A stretch of DNA of 64,000 bases, from assembly GCF_014200595.1 (NCBI RefSeq), contig NZ_JACHCG010000001.1:1302001-1366000 (forward strand). Reading direction: 5' to 3'. Position 1 is the first letter of the stretch. Each line of letters starts with the position of its first letter. Made by a program: the position numbers and the translations under genes. Of the stretch, positions 45,904 through 55,407 are shown piece by piece. Origin of the DNA: Pedobacter cryoconitis. GTDB taxonomy: Bacteria > Bacteroidota > Bacteroidia > Sphingobacteriales > Sphingobacteriaceae. The notes under the pieces are model-generated. The model did not search any database, was not told the origin of the DNA, and was given only the letters and a program-made list of their open reading frames with translations.

Positions 45904-46488
45904 TTACAGCAGGATAATTAAGAGAAAAGATGCTATAAAAGCAAGTACTGTTTTTAATATAGTTAAAGCGCGATGCATATGACTTTTAACGGTGTGCTCT
46001 GAAAGGCCGAGTTCTATTGCTATTTGTTTTCTGTTAAGATTGCTTTTTCTGCTAAGTTCAAAAACCTGGCGCATTTTAACAGGAAGGGTAGCTATTTCAG
46101 ATTCGATTAAACCTGACATATTATTATGACGTAACAAATAGTCTGAATCAGTCTGATAAGATACCAGACTTGAAAAACGTTCTATATATAGGTTAGAAAC
46201 CTTTTTATGTCTGAACAAGTCAAAGATCTTATTCTTTAATACAAAATATAGATATGCCGAAGGCTCTGAGGAGATTTTGAGTTCTGCTCGTTTTTCCCAA
46301 AGCATACTAAATACCTCATGTATGAGATCTTGTGCTTCTTCTTCACTACCCGTTTTTCTGCAGGCAAAAATGAATAAACTGTTCTGATATCGATGGTAAA
46401 TCTCAGTATAAGCCTTTCTATCCCCTGTTTTCAGGTGGTGAAATAATTCATTATCGCTAGTCTTAGAGAATTTTAGAGCTTTATCCAA
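45904..46488 (-). CDS. ECF-type RNA polymerase sigma factor
   Basis: 194 residues. Region 2 (GDRKAYTEIYHRYQNSLFIF; EAQDLIHEVFSMLWEKR) and region 4 (VFELSRKSNLNRKQIAIELG; SEHTVKSHMHRAL) are both clear. The protein ends in an unusual hydrophobic tail (LAFIASFLLIILL) that could hold it at the membrane. There is no FecR-type anti-sigma gene beside it. It diverges from the outer-membrane barrel gene at 46850, and control of that gene and the peptide cluster is plausible. Confidence 0.88.
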   Translation of the reverse strand: MDKALKFSKTSDNELFHHLKTGDRKAYTEIYHRYQNSLFIFACRKTGSEEEAQDLIHEVFSMLWEKRAELKISSEPSAYLYFVLKNKIFDLFRHKKVSNLYIERFSSLVSYQTDSDYLLRHNNMSGLIESEIATLPVKMRQVFELSRKSNLNRKQIAIELGLSEHTVKSHMHRALTILKTVLAFIASFLLIILL

Positions 46489-46849
46489 TTTATTTAAATT
46501 TTATTTTTAAAGTTTTGGCACTTCTATGCCAGAATTGTAATCGATCAGTTTGATCAGATCAATCGATAACTTATAATTTCAAGTATAATGTATTTGTTAT
46601 AGAATTGTGTTTTTATTACGCGAACCTTCGTTTTTTTTAGGTAAACACATACATTATACATATTATGTTAATTTTCTAGTTTTTATTGGTTAAATTTTTT
46701 ATCATTTATATAATTTTAATTGTTGTAATGTTTGTTTTTATTGCACCCTTACATCTTAATTAAACGTTATGTATTAAAAAGGGACTAATTGCTGGCGCTA
46801 AATAAATAGTGAAGTATATTTTATCTCCCTGTAATTGGAGAAGGAATAC
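46489..46849. other. Divergent intergenic region with palindromes
   Basis: About 360 bp, strongly AT-rich, between the sigma factor and the outer-membrane receptor; both promoters must lie here. Visible features are a palindrome TTGATC-A-GATCAA (46550-46562) flanked by ATCGAT at 46540-46545 and 46562-46567, and a short inverted repeat TTGGCA/TGCCAGA near 46515-46533. No ORF or RNA gene is seen. Confidence 0.5.
46540..46567. promoter_or_regulatory. Candidate operator palindrome near the sigma factor gene
   Basis: TTGATC-A-GATCAA inside an outer ATCGAT pair, about 52-79 bp upstream of the ECF sigma start. The symmetry suggests a dimeric regulator; nothing else supports it. Confidence 0.3.
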
Positions 46850-49252
46850 ATGATAAAAGGATATATTTTCATTTGTTTGCTGTTTTTTTTAACTGCTGGT
46901 AATGTATACGCACAATCACATGTCAAAGGGCAAGTTAAAGATTTGAATGATCGGCCAATTGAGCTTATAGAGGTTTTGCTTCAAAGTAAAGACTCCATAA
47001 TTGTAAAAAATGAACTCACAAATATAGATGGCAAGTTTAGCTTAACAGTTGAAAAAGGAGTTTATCTGCTGTCTATTAGACAATTGGGGTCGATTCTATA
47101 TCGTAAAGAGATTGATTTAAATCAAAATATTGATTTATCTGTCATAAAAATAAGTGAAACTCAGCGCCAGCTTAAAGAGATTGCTGTTATCTCTAAAAAG
47201 AAAATAATAGAGAGAAGAGTCGACAGAATAATCTTTAATGTCGAAAACAGTATTTCCGCCAGTGGGGGAGATGCGATTGATGCTCTAAAAATCACTCCCT
47301 CCATTAAAGTACAGAACGAGTCAATTACAATGATTGGTAAAAATAAAATGTCTGTAATGATAGATGATCGTTTGATAGATCTTTCAGGGGATGATCTGAT
47401 TAACTTTCTGAAAACAATTAGAACAGATGATATTAAAGCTATTGAGGTAATTACGAATCCACCAGCCAAATATGATGCAGAAGGAAATAGTGGATTAGTA
47501 AATATCAAATTGAAAAAAGCAAAGTCAGACAGCTGGAATGCTTCCCTCAATAGTAGTTATAAACAATCAACTTATGCAACTTCAAGTAATGGAGGTAGTT
47601 TTAATTATCAAAAGAAAAGACTTTCATTCTTTACAAATCTGAATTATGTTAACGGATCAAAAAGAGGTATAGAACAAGAAGAAATAATCTATTCTTCGCA
47701 AACCTGGAACAATGAATTTAAGAGACATGTTTATACAAATATCTTCAGTGGCAGAGCCGGATTAGATTATAAGTTATCTGATAACTGGACTATTGGAGCT
47801 CAGTACCTGGGTAGCCTTAACAAGCCGCGAACAAATCAAGATGATCATACTATAATTACCAATAATGCCAGTCGAAAAGTGGATTCTTTGATTAATTCAA
47901 TATCAAATGACTCTAAGAGAAACAATTCTAATTCTATCAATATACATTCTTTGGTCAAGTTGGATAGTTCGGGTAAGAATATTTCATTTGATCTGGATTA
48001 TTTTAATTTAAATAATCATATTGACAGAGATTTTCAAACGCAAAATAGTTATTCTGATTTCACTCCAACGCCGGGTGGTTATAAATCTGCTACAAATTCA
48101 GGGTTTCAGGATATAAATATTTATTCGGCGAAAATTGATATAACTGATCCTCTAAAATGGATTAAATTAAGTTACGGGGCTAAAATATATTTCTCCAAAA
48201 CAAACTATGATAATAACTATTTTGATACTTCTACGGGTGTCCCGGTATTTCAAAGCAACCAGAGTAATGCTTTTCAGTATTCAGAAAACACTCAGGCATT
48301 ATATATTTCCGGGAATAAAAAACTTGCAGATAAGTGGGAATTAAAGCTGGGGTTAAGGGTTGAAAATACGCAAACAAAAGGGAATTCATTAACGCTCAGC
48401 CAGGTAAATACAAATAATTATATTCAATTTTTTCCGACAACCTATATCCAATATACATCAAGTGAGAACCACTCTTTTTCGCTGAATTTTGGAAGACGAT
48501 TAGCAAGGCCAAGGTATAATGAACTTAATCCATTTAAAGTTTATTATAATCCTTATAGCTATACGCAAGGTAATCCATTTCTATCCCCTTCATATACCAA
48601 TAATATTGAGTTTCAACATTCATATAAAGATGTATTATTTACTTCCCTGTCATTTTCTAATACCACAAACGGTATAGGGAATCCTCCTTTTTTTAATGAG
48701 GATACTAAAATTCAATATTTATTGGATTTGAATTATTATACAGCTAATAGTTATAACATAAGTGAAACTTATGTATTTAATAAACTTAAATGGTGGGAAA
48801 GTGAGAATCAGGGAAATCTATTCTATAAGACTACTCATATCACAAGAGAGCTCAATCTGAAAGGGAATAAGGGGTTTGGCGCATATTTTTCAACAAATAA
48901 TAGTTTCACAATTAATAAAAATAAAACTATAAAAGGTGAAATAAATTTTTGGTATCAAACGCCCAGATATGAAGATATATATAAAACAGAATCTACTTCC
49001 AGTCTGGATTTAGGAATGAAATTTTTACTGCTGAATAATAGTTTGCAATTAGCAGTGATCGCCCAGGATATCTTCAAAAATGATATAACTAAATCTAAAA
49101 CAGTATCCAGTAGTATTAACTATGGTTTTTCTGATTATAACGACAGCCGATATTTTAGGATTTCAGCATCTTATAAGTTTGGCAGCCGTAAGTTGAATCT
49201 TAAGCAAAGGAATTTTGGTAATGAAGAAGAAAAAAGAAGAGCGGACCAATAA
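46850..49252 (+). CDS. TonB-type outer-membrane beta-barrel protein (OMP_b-brl_3-like)
   Basis: 800 residues from ATG 46850, which has a good ribosome site (GGAGAAGG); an in-frame TTG at 46835 is rejected. Signal peptide (MIKGYIFICLLFFLTAGNVY), carboxypeptidase regulatory-like domain (about 25-105), a plug-like domain (ALKITPSIKVQNESITMIGK; NPPAKYDAEGNSGLVNIKLK) and a barrel. No SusD partner. It ends 90 bp before the first His-rich peptide gene and may be cotranscribed with it; uptake or export of the mature peptide or its metal complex is a reasonable but unproved role. Confidence 0.85.
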   Translation: MIKGYIFICLLFFLTAGNVYAQSHVKGQVKDLNDRPIELIEVLLQSKDSIIVKNELTNIDGKFSLTVEKGVYLLSIRQLGSILYRKEIDLNQNIDLSVIKISETQRQLKEIAVISKKKIIERRVDRIIFNVENSISASGGDAIDALKITPSIKVQNESITMIGKNKMSVMIDDRLIDLSGDDLINFLKTIRTDDIKAIEVITNPPAKYDAEGNSGLVNIKLKKAKSDSWNASLNSSYKQSTYATSSNGGSFNYQKKRLSFFTNLNYVNGSKRGIEQEEIIYSSQTWNNEFKRHVYTNIFSGRAGLDYKLSDNWTIGAQYLGSLNKPRTNQDDHTIITNNASRKVDSLINSISNDSKRNNSNSINIHSLVKLDSSGKNISFDLDYFNLNNHIDRDFQTQNSYSDFTPTPGGYKSATNSGFQDINIYSAKIDITDPLKWIKLSYGAKIYFSKTNYDNNYFDTSTGVPVFQSNQSNAFQYSENTQALYISGNKKLADKWELKLGLRVENTQTKGNSLTLSQVNTNNYIQFFPTTYIQYTSSENHSFSLNFGRRLARPRYNELNPFKVYYNPYSYTQGNPFLSPSYTNNIEFQHSYKDVLFTSLSFSNTTNGIGNPPFFNEDTKIQYLLDLNYYTANSYNISETYVFNKLKWWESENQGNLFYKTTHITRELNLKGNKGFGAYFSTNNSFTINKNKTIKGEINFWYQTPRYEDIYKTESTSSLDLGMKFLLLNNSLQLAVIAQDIFKNDITKSKTVSSSINYGFSDYNDSRYFRISASYKFGSRKLNLKQRNFGNEEEKRRADQ

Positions 49253-49342
49253 AATGTAAATAGTACATATTAACTCAAAAAGGAAGAAACTGATGCCTAC
49301 GTACAAAGAAAGTTAATCAATCAATTTCTAAAACATTAAAAA

Positions 49343-49498
49343 ATGCTAGAAGAACAAATTAAAAAAGCGGCAGACTTCTTAGGAGTCAAAGTATTAAACA
49401 CGCTTGAAGAAAAGTCTGTAGTTGGTGGAACCTTACCTCCGGCAGATCACCATGATCACACCGATGAGGGAAGACATCACTCTCACCATGACAGCTAG
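49343..49498 (+). CDS. His-rich double-glycine leader peptide 1 (RiPP precursor)
   Basis: 51 residues, below common ORF cut-offs. The leader EEQIKKAADFLGVKVLNTLE is followed by EKSVVGG with the Gly-Gly at 28-29, the classic cleavage site for C39 peptidases. The 22-residue C-terminus has seven His, four Asp, one Glu and a PP pair; it contains DHHDH and RHHSHHD. Two paralogs follow and a C39 exporter lies in the same cluster. Strong conservation of the leader with a changing core marks it as a modified-peptide precursor. The modification is inferred from neighbours. Confidence 0.85.
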   Translation: MLEEQIKKAADFLGVKVLNTLEEKSVVGGTLPPADHHDHTDEGRHHSHHDS

Positions 49499-49502
49499 AG
49501 CT

Positions 49503-49529
49503 TTTATAATATCTGAACGATATTATAAA
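49503..49529 (+). terminator. Hairpin after peptide gene 1
   Basis: Perfect 11-bp stem TTTATAATATC (49503-49513) with GATATTATAAA (49519-49529), loop TGAAC, 5 bp past the stop of peptide 1. AT-rich, so a weak terminator or a 3' end stabilising element. Confidence 0.45.
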
Positions 49530-49685
49530 TTAATGGAAGTGAAATAATTTCCACTCCCATATCCGGTTTTTCAGATTAAAATTAAGATCTAATTAGAAGT
49601 CGTTGCATGAAAGCTAATAGATTCTTAATATTTCATCTGTAATTACAAGTCTAAAAAAATCAATTTACATTAAAACCTAAAAGCA

Positions 49686-49844
49686 ATGCAAGAAGAAAAA
49701 ATTAAAAAAGCAATCGATTTCCTGGGCGTAAAAGTATTAAATACCCTTGAAGAAAAAGCAGTAGTTGGCGGAAATATTCTTCCTCCTGAAAGCCATGATC
49801 ATACTGATGAAGGAAGACATCATTCTCATCACGATCATCCATAG
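49686..49844 (+). CDS. His-rich double-glycine leader peptide 2 (RiPP precursor)
   Basis: 52 residues, paralog of peptide 1. Leader EEKIKKAIDFLGVKVLNTLE then EKAVVGG with Gly-Gly again at 28-29. The 23-residue core starts NILPPESHDH, keeps TDEGRHHSHHD and ends DHP; it has seven His. Leader and the TDEGRHHSHHD part are nearly the same as in peptide 1, while the start and end differ. Own ribosome site; 187 bp from peptide 1. Confidence 0.85.
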   Translation: MQEEKIKKAIDFLGVKVLNTLEEKAVVGGNILPPESHDHTDEGRHHSHHDHP

Positions 49845-49942
49845 ATTTTAGCTGTCTTTATCACTGTTTCTAAAAGATAATTTTGACGAATATGTTATGA
49901 CAGTTAATTACAGTCATTTTATTAATAAAAAATTTTAAGAAA

Positions 49943-50104
49943 ATGGAAGAAGATCAAGTTAAAAAGGCTGCTGACTTTTTGGGTGTGAAATTTTTGACAC
50001 CACTCGAGCAAGCTGCAATAGCCGGCGGAATTGAACATCCAAAAGATTACCATTATCATCATGGAAATCATCATGCGGATCATACCTACGGCGATAAAGA
50101 TTAA
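49943..50104 (+). CDS. His-rich double-glycine leader peptide 3 (RiPP precursor)
   Basis: 53 residues. Leader EEDQVKKAADFLGVKFLTPLE then QAAIAGG, Gly-Gly at 28-29 as in the others. The 24-residue core is quite different (IEHPKDYHYHHGNHHADH start, then TYGDKD) but still has exactly seven His, plus three Tyr. This shows that the leader and the His content are kept while the core order is free, typical of peptide substrates of one promiscuous pathway. Confidence 0.85.
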   Translation: MEEDQVKKAADFLGVKFLTPLEQAAIAGGIEHPKDYHYHHGNHHADHTYGDKD

Positions 50105-50109
50105 GTTTC

Positions 50110-50138
50110 GCTACTCCGTAATTTAATTACGGAGTAGC
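50110..50138 (+). terminator. Strong hairpin between precursor genes and enzyme genes
   Basis: Perfect 13-bp stem GCTACTCCGTAAT (50110-50122) with ATTACGGAGTAGC (50126-50138), 3-nt loop, followed by a T-rich stretch. It is 5 bp past the stop of peptide 3 and 30 bp before the first oxygenase gene. It probably lets most transcripts end after the precursors, with read-through to the enzymes. Confidence 0.7.
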
Positions 50139-50168
50139 TTATTTTAAATTAACTCAGCTTAAATCAAC

Positions 50169-51446
50169 ATGATAACAACTACTGAAATTGAAAATTATAG
50201 TACGGAATGGTGGGATGGGTTCCTGGTTAAAACTAAAAACCTTACTGAAACCTCTGTATTCAAAGATTGCATGGTTAAGCAAGAAACAAAGTTATTAAGG
50301 ACATATATCCTTCAGATTATTCAGACACTGGCCAAATTGCGTACAAATAAATATGGATATAGAGTCTATATAGATGGTAAACTGCTGGACAGAGTGGAGA
50401 TGAACAGAATATATGATGCTCCACCACATGATAATGAAGAAGTAGAGGATTGGGTAGAAAGAGTTTTTGGTGATAAGAAATTTGGTATGATACTAAATTT
50501 AGGTGAAAAATTTAATCTGGATCTTTCAAAGAATATAGCTTTAAAAACTCAACCGTATTTAGAAAAAGTCGGTTTCCCCAGAGAGGGTATAAACTTCTCT
50601 ATTTTTATTGGAAACTATGATAAAACGCCTTTGGGTATCCATAAAGATCCTCCAGGACAGGATGTTATGCATTTTCATTTAGGGCCTGGTGATAAAACAA
50701 TGTATACCTGGGGTAAAGACGAATATGAAAATCTGACCACAAATTTGAAATTTGAAAAACAAGATATTGACGGACTATTGCCATACTCAACTGAGTTCTC
50801 TTTCAAAGAAGGTGATATGTATTTTATGCCTGAGGGAGAATATCATATTGGTAAACAAGATGGTTTATCTATGGCACTTACCTTATGGAGATATAACCAT
50901 ACTAAAGATAAGCTGGCTAAAAAGCTTCAAAATGTGATTTTTAGTCAATTCCTCAAACAAAATGATGACTTACTTTTATCTGATAAAAATGACTTAAACA
51001 ATGTGGATGGTCTGGAAGAAACGCTTGAAGTTTTTGATATTCCAGGTGAAATGGAAAATTTGAATTTTAAAGATTTAATGAGAGAGGCCTATAAGGATCT
51101 GAGATATTCTATTCACAGTAATGCAGGATATCGAACAAGTCCATTTCCTTTAGATCATGATATTTTGTTTAAAATGGATGATGAAATTATACTGGAGAAA
51201 CCTTATAAGATTTTGTATAAACTTTCACTGAACCAGGAAAAGATCCATATGTATGTAAGGGGTATTAAGCTCGAACTAAATAATTTTGATGGCATTATTT
51301 CTTTACTTAACCGGATAAATATTGGTAAAAAGGAAAGGGTCAGCGATTTGTTGAGCATTTTAGATCAAACGTGGGATCAGGAAACCGGACTTTATATATT
51401 GAATCTGATCTATAAAAATCATGGGATTACAATCATAAAAAATTAG
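50169..51446 (+). CDS. JmjC/cupin-like Fe(II)-dependent oxygenase 1, putative peptide hydroxylase
   Basis: 425 residues, soluble. A cupin core is visible: H-x-D at His158-Asp160 (TPLGIHKDPPG), then HFHLGPGDKTMYTW, and the distal His226 in FMPEGEYHIGKQDG, giving the two-His-one-Asp facial triad of 2-oxoglutarate oxygenases. The N-terminal about 110 residues (ILQIIQTLAKLRTNKYGYRV) may be a substrate-binding part, and the C-terminal about 150 residues are separate and helical, like the dimer/winged-helix part of JmjC ribosomal oxygenases. It lies between the precursors and the exporter and has a paralog 5 bp downstream. Hydroxylation of core His or Asp is inferred, not shown. Confidence 0.7.
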   Translation: MITTTEIENYSTEWWDGFLVKTKNLTETSVFKDCMVKQETKLLRTYILQIIQTLAKLRTNKYGYRVYIDGKLLDRVEMNRIYDAPPHDNEEVEDWVERVFGDKKFGMILNLGEKFNLDLSKNIALKTQPYLEKVGFPREGINFSIFIGNYDKTPLGIHKDPPGQDVMHFHLGPGDKTMYTWGKDEYENLTTNLKFEKQDIDGLLPYSTEFSFKEGDMYFMPEGEYHIGKQDGLSMALTLWRYNHTKDKLAKKLQNVIFSQFLKQNDDLLLSDKNDLNNVDGLEETLEVFDIPGEMENLNFKDLMREAYKDLRYSIHSNAGYRTSPFPLDHDILFKMDDEIILEKPYKILYKLSLNQEKIHMYVRGIKLELNNFDGIISLLNRINIGKKERVSDLLSILDQTWDQETGLYILNLIYKNHGITIIKN

Positions 51447-51451
51447 GGCCA

Positions 51452-52726
51452 ATGCTTATTAACGAAGAAAATAAATTTAATTCTGATTGGTGGGATAATT
51501 TTTTATCGACCACACAACAGATGACACAAACGTCTGTGCTTAAGAATTGTATGCCTAAAGATGAAACGTCTTTAATGCAAACTTATATATTGGAAATATT
51601 AGCTGATTTAGCAAGGCTCAGGACTAATAAATTTGGCTATAGAGTATATGTAGATGGTGTTCAGCTTGAGAGTAATGAGATGATCCAGATCTATGATTCT
51701 CCGCCAGAAAAAGGTGAAACACTTGAGGCATGGACTAAAAGGACATTTGGAGATAGAAAGTTCGGTATGATTATTAATCAGGGAGAGAAATTCAATCTGA
51801 ACCTTTCTAAAATGATTGCACTTAAACTTGAACCATTATTGGCGAAAATAGGCATGCCAACAGAAGGTATCATCTTTACATTATTTATTGGAAATTATGA
51901 TAGTACACCTTTAGGGATCCATTTGGACTTACCTGGTAAGAGTGTTTTACATTTTCATTTAGGTCCGGGCAGCAAAACTATGTATACCTGGGAAACTGCT
52001 AAATATCTTGAATTGGTAGGGGAAGAAAAGTATAATAATCAAAATATACAAAAGTATTTACCCTATGCAAATAAGTATCAGTTTGATGAGGGAGATATTT
52101 ATTTTATGCCTGAAGATACTTACCATGTCGGGACTCAGGATGGACTTTCAATGGCAATTGCCTGTTGGTTTTATAATCGTTCAAATCAGGATTTTGCACA
52201 CAGACTTCAGTCTTTATTGCTGGAACAATATATAAAGACAACTGATGAGAATCTGAAACCTGATAATAATGCTATTCAGGATGTAAGTGCTGTCGATAAA
52301 ACTCTGGATTTATTTGATATGCCAGAGGAACTTGAAAAACTGAATTTCAAAGATCTGATGAAAGAAACTTATAGAGATCTTAGGTATTCTTTGTATAGTA
52401 ATGCCGGTTACAGGACAAGCCCATTTCTGAAAACAGAGCAAATTTCTTTTGATCCCGATGACATCATTGAAGTAGAAAGGCCATACAAAATCCTTTATAA
52501 AGAATCTTTGGATACGGAAAAGCTGCAACTCTTTATCCGGGGAATTAAGTTTGAGCTTAATAATTTTGAAAGTATAAAAACTCTTGTCGATGAAATAAAT
52601 AATGATAAACCTATTGTTGTAAAAGATGCACTGTCATTGTTGGATGAGAAATGGGATAAAGATATCGGGCTATATATATTGTCAGTTTTATACCAGCACA
52701 ATGGTATTAACATAATTAAAAATTAA
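51452..52726 (+). CDS. JmjC/cupin-like Fe(II)-dependent oxygenase 2, putative peptide hydroxylase
   Basis: 424 residues, full-length paralog of the previous gene. Triad residues are kept: His157-x-Asp159 (TPLGIHLDLPG), HFHLGPGSKTMYTW, His225 (MPEDTYHVGTQDG). Both copies end in the same way (LYIL-x-x-(L/I)Y-x-x-(H/N)G-I-x-IIKN). The stop overlaps the exporter start by one base (TAATG), so the two enzymes and the exporter are one translational unit. Two intact copies suggest two different sites or two residue types on the peptide, or a heterodimer. Confidence 0.7.
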   Translation: MLINEENKFNSDWWDNFLSTTQQMTQTSVLKNCMPKDETSLMQTYILEILADLARLRTNKFGYRVYVDGVQLESNEMIQIYDSPPEKGETLEAWTKRTFGDRKFGMIINQGEKFNLNLSKMIALKLEPLLAKIGMPTEGIIFTLFIGNYDSTPLGIHLDLPGKSVLHFHLGPGSKTMYTWETAKYLELVGEEKYNNQNIQKYLPYANKYQFDEGDIYFMPEDTYHVGTQDGLSMAIACWFYNRSNQDFAHRLQSLLLEQYIKTTDENLKPDNNAIQDVSAVDKTLDLFDMPEELEKLNFKDLMKETYRDLRYSLYSNAGYRTSPFLKTEQISFDPDDIIEVERPYKILYKESLDTEKLQLFIRGIKFELNNFESIKTLVDEINNDKPIVVKDALSLLDEKWDKDIGLYILSVLYQHNGINIIKN

Positions 52727-54924
52727 TGCGGTTTATATACCAGCTTGACCGGATGGACTGTGGGCCAGCGTGTTTGTGTATGGTCGCAAGTAAGTATGGA
52801 AAAAAATATTCTTTACAATATCTTAGAGAAAACTCCTTTCTAAGCAGGGAAGGAGTTTCTCTTTCTGGAATGCGTGAGGCGAGCCAGAAAATAGGATTTG
52901 AAGTAATTACCACACAACAGGATCTTGATGTTTTACAAAAACAGCATGATTTTTTTCCATGTATTTTGCATTGGAATAGTAACCATTTTGTTGTGCTTTT
53001 AAATGTGAAAAAAAATATCTTCACCAAAAAGATATCCTATGAAATTGCAGATCCTGCGCATGGTATAATTACACTGAATGAAGATACTTTTAAAAAGGGA
53101 TGGTTATCGGATGAAAATAATGGGATAGTTTTATTTTTAACTCCAACTGAAGAGTTTTACAGCAAAAATCCAGTTGAAGATAACCTGGTTACCCTAAAAC
53201 ATGTTATCAGCTATCTTAAGCCTTATAGAAAGCAATTTGCAACTATGTTTTTATTACTTCTGATTGGGAGTTGTATAACATTGGTTTTTCCTTTTCTGAC
53301 TCAACAACTAATTGATAAAGGGGTCAATGCAAAAAACCTTCATTTTATAACAATTATACTTTTGGCCCAATTGGGTTTATTTGTTGGGTCCTCAATAATT
53401 GAAATTATCCGCAATTGGATTATGTTATTTATAGGTACTAAAATAAGTATAACCATTATTTCAGATTTTCTAAAAAAACTGTTGCAGTTACCTATCAAGT
53501 TTTTTGAGACTAAAATGATAGGTGATTTTAATCAGAGAATAAAAGACAATGAAAAAATAGATTCATTTTTAACAAGCCAAAGTATCACGACTTTATTTTC
53601 GATCATTACTTTTTCTGTGTTTTTTGGTGTGCTCTGGTATTATGATTTTAAAATATTATTCGTGTATTTTACGCTAACGGGCCTGGCTGTTGGATGGTCT
53701 TACTACTGGCTCAGAAAACGTAAAAGCCTGGATTATTTCCGGTTTCAAAATCGTAGTGAAAATCAAGAGTCGATATATGAGATCCTGAATGGCGTTACTG
53801 AAATGAAATTGAATCAATTTGAGGATTTCAAGCGCAAAGAATGGGAAGTAATACAACAAAAGCTCTTTAAAATAAACATACGGATATTAAAACTCGATCA
53901 GGTTCAGCTCACAGGATTTGAATTTATCAATCAATTGAAAAATATCCTGGTTACTTTTTTCGCAGCTACATATGTTGTTAAAGGAAGTATGACACTTGGA
54001 GAACTTTTAAGTGTTTCTTATATAATAGGACAAATGAATTCTCCGGTAAATCAGTTGATTAGTTTTTTCAGATCATTACAAGATGCTAAATTAAGCCTGG
54101 AACGTTTAAATGAGGTGCAAAATCATGCCATTGAAGAACGAGAAAGTCAAATTTCAATTCCAACATTCCCGCATTCCCGGGATAATTCAGGAATAAGTTT
54201 AAAGAATGTTTACTTCCAGTACGAAAGTTTAAATTCTCCATATATCCTGAAAAACATCAATCTCTTTATTCCTAAAGGTAAAATAACAGCCATTGTGGGA
54301 GCAAGCGGAAGTGGAAAGACAACATTGATGAAAATGTTATTGAAGTTTTATGAACCAACAGGGGGAGAGATATCTTTCAATTCAATATCGATGGATCATA
54401 TTTCACCTAATAGTCTGAGGGAAAATTGTGGTGTTGTTATGCAGGATGGTTTTATTTTTTCTGACTCAATTAAAAGAAATATTGTCACAGGGGATGAGAA
54501 TATTTGTGAGAAAAAACTTAAAAATGCTATTGAAATATCTAATATCAATGGTTTTATTGAATCCTTACCCTTAAAATACAATACAAAAATAGGTACATCG
54601 GGCAATGGTATTTCCGGGGGACAAAAACAGAGGATACTAATTGCCAGGGCAGTTTATAAAGATCCTCACTATCTATTCTTTGACGAAGCAACAAGTGCGC
54701 TGGATGCAGAAAATGAAAAGGTAATCCATGAGAATCTTCAACAGTTTTTTAAAGGAAAAACAGTCCTTATAATTGCACATCGTCTTTCAACAGTCAAAAA
54801 TGCTGACCAGATTGTTGTACTCAAAAATGGAGAAATAGTAGAGACTGGAAGTCATAATGATTTGGTAAGAAGTAAGGGAGATTACTATAATCTTATAAAA
54901 AATCAGTTAGAATTAGGGAACTAA
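52726..54924 (+). CDS. Peptidase-containing ABC transporter (C39, double-glycine peptide processing and export)
   Basis: 732 residues. C39 peptidase about 1-130 with catalytic Cys12 (MDCGPACLCM), Gln6, His87 (NSNHFVV) and Asp109 (ADPAHG). Membrane domain about 155-440, six helices. Nucleotide-binding domain with Walker A GASGSGKTT (about 525-533), signature GISGGQKQR, Walker B LFFDEA and H-loop IIAHRLST. It cuts leaders after Gly-Gly and exports the core. All motifs are intact. The three precursors with Gly-Gly at 28-29 are the obvious substrates. No HlyD-type adaptor or TolC gene is in the window, so the route over the outer membrane is open. Confidence 0.93.
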   Translation: MRFIYQLDRMDCGPACLCMVASKYGKKYSLQYLRENSFLSREGVSLSGMREASQKIGFEVITTQQDLDVLQKQHDFFPCILHWNSNHFVVLLNVKKNIFTKKISYEIADPAHGIITLNEDTFKKGWLSDENNGIVLFLTPTEEFYSKNPVEDNLVTLKHVISYLKPYRKQFATMFLLLLIGSCITLVFPFLTQQLIDKGVNAKNLHFITIILLAQLGLFVGSSIIEIIRNWIMLFIGTKISITIISDFLKKLLQLPIKFFETKMIGDFNQRIKDNEKIDSFLTSQSITTLFSIITFSVFFGVLWYYDFKILFVYFTLTGLAVGWSYYWLRKRKSLDYFRFQNRSENQESIYEILNGVTEMKLNQFEDFKRKEWEVIQQKLFKINIRILKLDQVQLTGFEFINQLKNILVTFFAATYVVKGSMTLGELLSVSYIIGQMNSPVNQLISFFRSLQDAKLSLERLNEVQNHAIEERESQISIPTFPHSRDNSGISLKNVYFQYESLNSPYILKNINLFIPKGKITAIVGASGSGKTTLMKMLLKFYEPTGGEISFNSISMDHISPNSLRENCGVVMQDGFIFSDSIKRNIVTGDENICEKKLKNAIEISNINGFIESLPLKYNTKIGTSGNGISGGQKQRILIARAVYKDPHYLFFDEATSALDAENEKVIHENLQQFFKGKTVLIIAHRLSTVKNADQIVVLKNGEIVETGSHNDLVRSKGDYYNLIKNQLELGN

Positions 54925-55161
54925 CATTATTCTTTTTCCGCCGCCGCAAATTTTATTTAACTGAAATGTTCTAAATACAGTATACTAAAACGATTAAAAT
55001 GCTTTTTTATCATTATTGATTATAAATATGTAAAAATGTGTATTTTTAATGATTAATAGTGACTGTTTTTAATCTAAAATAAATATTATGCTTTGGTATT
55101 TGTAATCTTATCTATAGTTTTTACTACTTTAATCTTATCATTGAATCACTAATTCTCTTTA

Positions 55162-55407
55162 ATGGCTTCATGTTTTTATTGTGGACAACCAGATGCAAGA
55201 TACCCCAGAAATGTTGTTACAGGCACTTCTAAGGATAACTGGCGTGGCAGACATTCTTCAGGAACAAATACCAGGACCTATTATGCAACGAAGTTGTTGT
55301 GCGAACAATGCGATGCAAATATTAGAATCAGAAAAACGAAATCCAGTTGCTGGGTTCTCTTCCTTATAGCCCTTTTTTTAAGTCTTATTTTAATAGGTAT
55401 ACTATGA
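55162..55407 (+). CDS. Zinc-ribbon protein with C-terminal membrane helix
   Basis: 81 residues. Two Cys pairs, C4-x-x-C7 and C47-x-x-C50, form a likely zinc ribbon; a C-terminal hydrophobic helix follows (VLFLIALFLSLILIGIL). Its stop overlaps the ATG of the DnaJ-domain gene (ATGA), so the two are coupled. Function unknown. Confidence 0.65.
   Translation: MASCFYCGQPDARYPRNVVTGTSKDNWRGRHSSGTNTRTYYATKLLCEQCDANIRIRKTKSSCWVLFLIALFLSLILIGIL

Follow-up and report, generated by a model that had tools for sequence, protein, structure and literature searches.

A candidate RiPP pathway in Pedobacter cryoconitis with ribosomal-oxygenase-like JmjC enzymes and repetitive precursor cores

Genes and features of the locus

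We analysed a stretch of 64,000 nt from Pedobacter cryoconitis (contig NZ_JACHCG010000001.1, positions 1,302,001-1,366,000, forward strand), hereafter called the window; coordinates are window positions unless another locus is named. At positions 49343-54924 (+), three precursor-like open reading frames (ORFs), two paralogous enzyme genes and one exporter gene follow each other in this order. This arrangement resembles a pathway for ribosomally synthesized and post-translationally modified peptides (RiPPs). The following features were distinguished, including the gene upstream and domains resembling a RiPP recognition element (RRE):

46835..49252 (+), TonB-dependent-receptor-like outer-membrane beta-barrel protein, 805 aa; Pfam OMP_b-brl_3, 1.4e-87
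49343..49498 (+), precursor peptide 1, 51 aa; leader 1-29 ending in GG, core TLPPADHHDHTDEGRHHSHHDS
49686..49844 (+), precursor peptide 2, 52 aa; core NILPPESHDHTDEGRHHSHHDHP
49943..50104 (+), precursor peptide 3, 53 aa; core IEHPKDYHYHHGNHHADHTYGDKD; homolog P0125 is 83% identical
50110..50138 (+), perfect 13-bp hairpin, then a T-rich stretch, between precursor 3 and enzyme 1
50169..51446 (+), enzyme 1, ribosomal-oxygenase-like JmjC protein, 425 aa, predicted hydroxylase; triad H158/D160/H226; 54% identity to the modelled enzyme 2
51153..51443 (+), C-terminal RRE-like winged-helix domain of enzyme 1; 53% identity to the modelled domain of enzyme 2
51452..52726 (+), enzyme 2, ribosomal-oxygenase-like JmjC protein, 424 aa, predicted hydroxylase; triad H157/D159/H225; structure modelled
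52433..52723 (+), C-terminal RRE-like winged-helix domain of enzyme 2, possible leader-binding part; modelled separately
52726..54924 (+), ABC exporter with N-terminal C39 double-glycine protease, 732 aa; predicted to cleave after GG and to export the core

The initial annotation, made from the letters of the DNA alone, had described three small double-glycine genes, two paralogs with an HxD...H triad and an exporter with an intact C39 protease. All of these were verified: the ORFs and their lengths were as described, each precursor had Gly-Gly at residues 28-29 (with 7 His in the core), and the triad was located in both paralogs. The reported coupling of the last three genes was exact, with a gap of 5 bp between the enzyme genes and an overlap of 1 base between enzyme 2 and the exporter. 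As for the borders 49343..54924, the gene content was correct, but the extent looks too narrow, as it leaves out the receptor gene, which is separated from the first precursor by 90 bp.

The exporter matched Peptidase_C39 (E 1.8e-30), ABC_membrane and ABC_tran above the Pfam cut-offs, and its motifs DCGPAC, NHF and DPAHG start at residues 11, 86 and 109. It thus combines the C39 cysteine and histidine with ABC transmembrane and ATPase domains, as double-glycine exporters do. In the related loci described below, the [DE]CG cysteine was found in all 41 exporters, 12 of which failed a strict motif pattern. The receptor family occurred within 6.5 kb of 27 of the 39 close Bacteroidota loci and of none of the 7 close Pseudomonadota loci. 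The receptor of the window is probably part of the cluster and an outer-membrane partner of the exported peptide. Divergent from it lies a gene for an ECF-type (extracytoplasmic function) sigma factor (45904-46488, -), whose family (F12) is present in four tabulated loci, the window counted.

Eight proteins encoded at 46835-55407 were scanned with Pfam and NCBIfam profiles. In their matches (for the exporter, among the matches listed), no lanthionine, radical-SAM, YcaO or ATP-grasp enzyme was found, as the initial annotation had stated, and neither was an MNIO (multinuclear non-heme iron-dependent oxidative) enzyme, a B12-radical-SAM enzyme or a peptide arginase. A lanthipeptide or sactipeptide was rejected on these grounds, Cys making up 0.8% of core residues, and a graspetide was rejected for want of an MvdC/MvdD-type ATP-grasp ligase in the Pfam matches.

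Enzyme fold, co-conservation and core types

Neither enzyme of the window reached a Pfam or NCBIfam cut-off. JmjC_2 (PF08007) scored 12.1 bits against a cut-off of 22 for one paralog and did not match the other; as this lies below the curated cut-off, we do not file the enzymes as PF08007, and our claim concerns their fold and mode of action. Among relatives, 10 of 27 aligned members matched JmjC_2 at E<=1 (best E 0.0019), Cupin_8 was matched weakly too (best E 0.00073), and some are already titled 'JmjC domain-containing protein' in UniRef. The best solved-structure match by sequence, HepS (E 0.024), was set aside as a chance match; a second sequence search of solved structures gave none at E<=1. 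A search of viral contigs found no relative.

The structure model of enzyme 2 was confident (pLDDT, the predicted local distance difference test, 92.7) and aligned over its full length with the ribosomal oxygenases YcfD, NO66 and MINA53. It has their architecture, i.e. a JmjC core, a helical middle and a C-terminal winged helix, so the cupin core foreseen in the initial annotation is present. The HxD...H metal triad was invariant in all 57 enzymes of the loci, as was Lys175, a candidate for the basic residue binding the carboxylate of 2-oxoglutarate (2OG). The C-terminal domain, modelled separately (pLDDT 93.4), is a winged helix with strands followed by three helices, as in an RRE. It matched the wing parts of MINA53 and NO66 as well as the leader-binding domains of ThcOx, MccB, PbtF, PqqD and TbiB1; judging by this model, it is a possible leader binder.

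A single scan of genomes of 84,980 species yielded 71 loci. Together with the window and a second cluster of its own genome, 73 loci were tabulated (L005-L076 and the window); repeats of genes of the window or its genome (L001-L004, L077, L079-L081) were left out, and so was L078, whose contig is as long as that of L046. Close and distant loci were divided at an enzyme hidden Markov model (HMM) score of 280, and precursors were sought with a leader HMM. Among the 46 close loci (score >=280), 39 had a precursor, 41 a C39 exporter and 37 both, against 0, 1 and 0 of the 27 distant loci (score <280), a contrast which is descriptive, its distant zero not being a fully independent control, because the leader HMM was seeded from close-locus peptides and the cut was chosen after inspecting the table. 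Within these bounds the modifying enzyme is co-conserved with its precursor. As for the seven close loci without an HMM precursor, two stop at the enzyme, in one the expected site is a run of N, one has broken enzyme frames, and two (L041, L043) contain a divergent ORF with a GG leader; in the last, L047, no precursor ORF was found. The distant loci belonged to Photorhabdus, Photobacterium, Myxococcales, some Flavobacteriia and others.

Given the fold and the co-occurrence, neither of two outcomes named beforehand as contrary to a RiPP pathway appeared, namely oxygenases lacking a cupin core and homologs found mostly without such peptides. The cluster is rare: it was found in 1 of 251 genomes of its own family (that of the window), in 2 of 395 of its own phylum (own included) and in 7 of 397 in the family of genome G182, of which one had internal stops and two were partial matches.

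The 58 precursor genes (57 unique cores) have their leader in common while their cores vary. In an alignment of 21 leader rows, L13, G28 and G29 were invariant and F12 and E22 nearly so (consensus xxFLGxKxLxxLExxxxxGG). Gene-encoded precursors with a conserved leader and a variable core, as in RiPPs, are thus supported by both the leader HMM and the alignment. Pfam and NCBIfam profiles gave nothing credible for the precursors. The hairpin of the window (RNA fold z -5.2) also recurs: 22 of 38 loci have a perfect stem (10 bp or longer) no more than about 160 nt past their last precursor, compared with 0.07 expected from shuffles. This fits a partial terminator favouring the precursor message, and the hairpin of the window may accordingly keep precursor transcripts above those of the enzymes.

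Cores of the His/Asp type were found in the window, Chitinophaga, Chromobacterium and Paucibacter (e.g. VGHHHDHDSVEAA and HTDEDHVHVHPSAS). Runs of 7-17 Gln were found in Kordia, Altibacter, Riemerella, a Flavobacteriales metagenome-assembled genome, one Chryseobacterium and one Aquimarina cluster. The core was EKEKEKEKEK in Niastella and KVKVKVKVKIK in other Aquimarina, while Tenacibaculum cores read KKEKKKEK and once KCKCKCKCK, this Cys-Lys repeat (L042 9650-9802) lying in a Lys-type cluster of six precursors. Paenimyroides and Elizabethkingia shared VTVETVVTTVVKVVTV, and a Chryseobacterium group had cores such as VVVVRVVRVVQQVQ. Among 120 of 127 matches listed in a wider precursor search, 53 cores were Lys-type, 33 Val-type, 30 Gln-type and 2 His-type, with 2 unassigned. 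The expected co-occurrence of the oxygenases with His-rich double-glycine peptides therefore stands as far as the peptides and the C39 exporter are concerned, but His-richness as a defining feature is ruled out by the Gln, Lys and Val cores beside enzymes of the same family; the His-rich form is one variant of a wider family.

The cores are of low complexity. In 45 of 57, entropy was lower than in segments of equal length taken from neighbouring proteins (p<0.05; Lys-type 22/26, Gln-type 9/12, Val-type 9/10, His-type 5/9). Identity at lag 2 exceeded all 1000 shuffles in His-type (31 vs 16.7) and Lys-type cores (133 vs 67.4), at lag 3 in Val-type cores (69 vs 34.5) and at lags 1-4 in Gln-type cores. 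Most longer tracts mix synonymous codons (CAA/CAG, AAA/AAG, GTA/GTT), an argument for selection at the peptide level, and single-codon use was seen in a few short tracts.

Core types were then compared with a quick IQ-TREE phylogeny of the 57 enzymes with SH-aLRT (Shimodaira-Hasegawa-like approximate likelihood ratio test) support; the run warned of long branches, namely the two L048 rows, which group together, L021_12618, L040 and L029. Labels were restricted to H, Q, K and V by largest share, though Glu is commonest in L005 and L035, and ties (L005 K/V, L029 Q/K) were resolved in favour of the first letter. L012, whose precursor lies in an N run, was labelled Q from flanking codons, L013 was split by hand into two clusters, and L014 counted as V in the tree test and as H in the column comparison. 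The four labels required 10 changes on the tree against a shuffle mean of 31.1, and none of 200 shuffles was as low. In His-type clusters, the twin enzymes fall into two subclades, each spanning Bacteroidota and Betaproteobacteria, from which it can be inferred that the pair is probably old and transferred jointly between phyla.

In the genome of the window, which has one His-type and one Glu/Lys-type cluster, and likewise in Aquimarina aggregata, with one Gln-type and one Lys/Val-type cluster, the enzymes of each cluster belong to the clade that matches its core. The second cluster of the window's genome (G000:C1:2862108-2864738 and flanks; L005 4136-14642) comprises two JmjC enzymes, a C39 exporter, an HlyD protein and a double-glycine precursor whose Glu/Lys core, TAESVEKETVKEHVKES, has one His; an ECF sigma factor, FecR and a receptor are divergent. 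Exceptions to the concordance are two Chromobacterium Gln-type enzymes inside the His-type clade. Several enzyme columns track core type (positions 150/151, 221, 321 and others), but as two Gln-labelled rows carry His-type letters there, we claim no specificity code. The concordance is support for, not proof of, a relation between enzyme and substrate, linked inheritance and near-copies among the rows explaining part of it.

Proposed pathway and its alternatives

We consider it probable (roughly 0.7) that the cluster is a RiPP pathway in which leader-guided JmjC enzymes hydroxylate a repetitive core, followed by C39 export. Most likely, it makes small exported peptides whose repetitive ends are hydroxylated, the modification itself being what we infer. 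According to this model, the three small precursors would be made in excess, the hairpin after the third limiting read-through into the enzyme genes. The common leader would be held by the RRE-like winged-helix domain of each enzyme, as the fold suggests, and the repetitive core would enter the Fe(II)/2OG site of the JmjC domain in an extended conformation. Recurrent residues would be hydroxylated there, presumably His and/or Asp in the window and Gln, Lys or Val/Thr in sister clusters. The two enzymes, representing two old subclades, probably hydroxylate different positions or residues. The C39 domain would then cleave after Gly-Gly, as is established for its family, and the exporter would deliver the core to the periplasm. 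Least certain is the final step, in which the TonB-type receptor may carry the product across the outer membrane or sense it there.

A different 2OG reaction on the core, such as desaturation, ring or ether formation, or cross-linking of neighbouring side chains, is rather unlikely. Fe/2OG enzymes are versatile, and 15 of 46 close loci have clusters with more than one enzyme (two or three), which would permit sequential steps. Against this, YcfD, NO66 and MINA53, which match the fold over its whole length, bear titles of side-chain hydroxylases (entry 4e4h names NO66 a histone demethylase as well), and the JmjC RiPP enzyme BipG yields +16 Da (PMC12707348).

Unlikely, too, is a role in metal handling, in which exported His/Asp cores would chelate a metal, hydroxylated or not, and the receptor would retrieve the complex. 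The 7 His per window core, with HxH and HDH patterns, and the receptor upstream in the window and both Chitinophaga loci (L007, L008) agree with it; moreover, beta-hydroxy-Asp and beta-hydroxy-His are known Fe ligands. However, the same enzyme family, leader and exporter type accompany poly-Gln, Lys/Val and Val/Thr cores, which are poor chelators, and receptors accompany these as well. No metal-transport gene was seen among neighbours of >150 aa in L007, L008, L014 and L018, judged by eye from the first 50 residues with no domain search.

That the enzymes act elsewhere, on a host protein or the exporter, and that the peptides are unmodified signals or bacteriocins merely sharing the operon, appears quite improbable. 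Ribosomal oxygenases do act on ribosomal proteins, and hydroxylation is a prediction here, but precursors lie beside 39 of 46 close enzymes, core type tracks enzyme clade, the enzyme carries an RRE-like domain, and modification of a RiPP precursor by a JmjC enzyme has precedent elsewhere (PMC12707348). Replication-slippage noise or mis-called ORFs can be dismissed almost entirely: poly-Gln tracts can grow by slippage and some short tracts are single-codon (e.g. His in L013 and L015, Lys in L039), but a conserved leader precedes the cores, most longer tracts mix codons, and core type is retained over much enzyme divergence.

Among known systems, the ribosomal oxygenases YcfD/RoxA, NO66 and MINA53 share with the window enzymes the domain order, the HxD...H core and full-length alignment. 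They differ in sequence (about 8-14% identity among the matches listed), and the window enzymes adjoin small double-glycine peptide genes and fall below the JmjC_2 cut-off. Peptidase-containing ABC transporter (PCAT) systems share the double-glycine leader and the C39-ABC exporter, whereas the window cluster has ribosomal-oxygenase-like enzymes and none of the lanthionine, radical-SAM or YcaO enzymes sought above. In the polytheonamide type, PoyI carries out several Fe/2OG side-chain hydroxylations on one ribosomal peptide, of another leader class and maturation.

The strongest precedent comes from the biphenomycin family, also with a JmjC-type enzyme acting on a ribosomal precursor. BipG is a JmjC protein hydroxylating ornithine of a RiPP precursor in vitro (PMC12707348) and PbsQ a cupin-like ornithine hydroxylase (PMC12257519). 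There, however, one ornithine is modified amid MNIO, arginase and B12-radical-SAM steps. The window cluster shows no recognised modifying enzymes besides its JmjC proteins, and it differs further in having repetitive cores and a leader and exporter of the double-glycine/C39 type. An RRE-fused JmjC (PF08007) with a legitimate RRE-like fold, with bacterial homologs in RiPP-like contexts, is mentioned in PMC12710340; the section concerned deals with fish and algal proteins and is without precursors, core types, exporter or cluster. The claim that no RiPP family of such make-up is described held in part: this family looks undescribed within open-licence full text, while JmjC hydroxylases in RiPP pathways are already known (PMC12707348, PMC12257519). 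JmjC, cupin and related terms do not occur in PMC8939145 and PMC10352776. In E. coli, RoxA hydroxylates Arg81 of uL16, close to a YcaO-thioamidated residue (PMC13063428), which is another meeting of RiPP-type and ribosomal-protein modification.

A broader proposal is tentative and more doubtful than not. It assumes a class of RiPPs that are homopolymers or dipeptide repeats hydroxylated many times over. A single enzyme fold with a built-in leader-binding domain would have diverged into clades, each repeatedly hydroxylating another residue (His/Asp, Gln, Lys, Val/Thr) along the repetitive core. The wing of human NO66 and MINA53 and bacterial YcfD matches the leader-binding fold; ribosomal oxygenases would thus be related to RiPP enzymes, and their wing would have originated as a leader-binding domain. 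We know of no JmjC precedent for Gln repeats. Should the RiPP reading of the cluster hold, there would be ribosomal peptides with JmjC hydroxylases as main or only tailoring enzymes and near-homopolymer cores (poly-Gln, (EK)n, (KV)n, (TV)n, His/Asp), and hydroxylases selecting new residues, with an exchangeable leader to direct them. Animal and bacterial ribosomal oxygenases would be linked to peptide natural-product enzymes, and about 300 proteins mostly called hypothetical (171 enzyme and 127 precursor matches) would become one testable system.

Related loci and neighbouring genes

Some distant loci (L058-L063; Photorhabdus, Photobacterium and a Neisseriaceae genome) contain twin JmjC-like genes with an ABC transporter of about 620 aa without a C39 match. 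Others (L065 13801-13971, L067 13500-13682, L069-L071 and L073; other Photorhabdus and Candidatus Paraburkholderia kirkii) contain JmjC-like ORFs of 600-700 aa and nearby a different small ORF ending in AVPRTLSGSEAGRV[LI]G[FW]GCRSC plus a short tail, and look like another RiPP type. In L043, L049 and L052 (5901-6905), JmjC homologs lie beside ATP-grasp family F29, whose L052 member, the one tested with Pfam, matches ATPgraspMvdD; hydroxylated graspetides are possible there.

A conserved trio adjoins Lys- and Val-type clusters in L030, L031, L034, L039, L042, L045 and L046. It consists of a ThiF-family protein, a LuxR-type regulator and a protein with sub-threshold similarity to FeeM/autoinducer synthases, which suggests signal control of the cluster.

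Finally, family F4 (about 120 aa, partly secreted-looking) occurs in eight loci. Seven of these have Gln-type cores; in the eighth, L012, a run of N masks the precursor. The family was not seen in the Chromobacterium Gln-type loci. Its members are:

L009 11986-12354
L010 8822-9223
L011 9588-9962
L012 9600-9974
L019 9558-9989
L023 9658-10017
L033 11323-11673
L040 6471-6866

The F4 protein is possibly a partner or an immunity protein.

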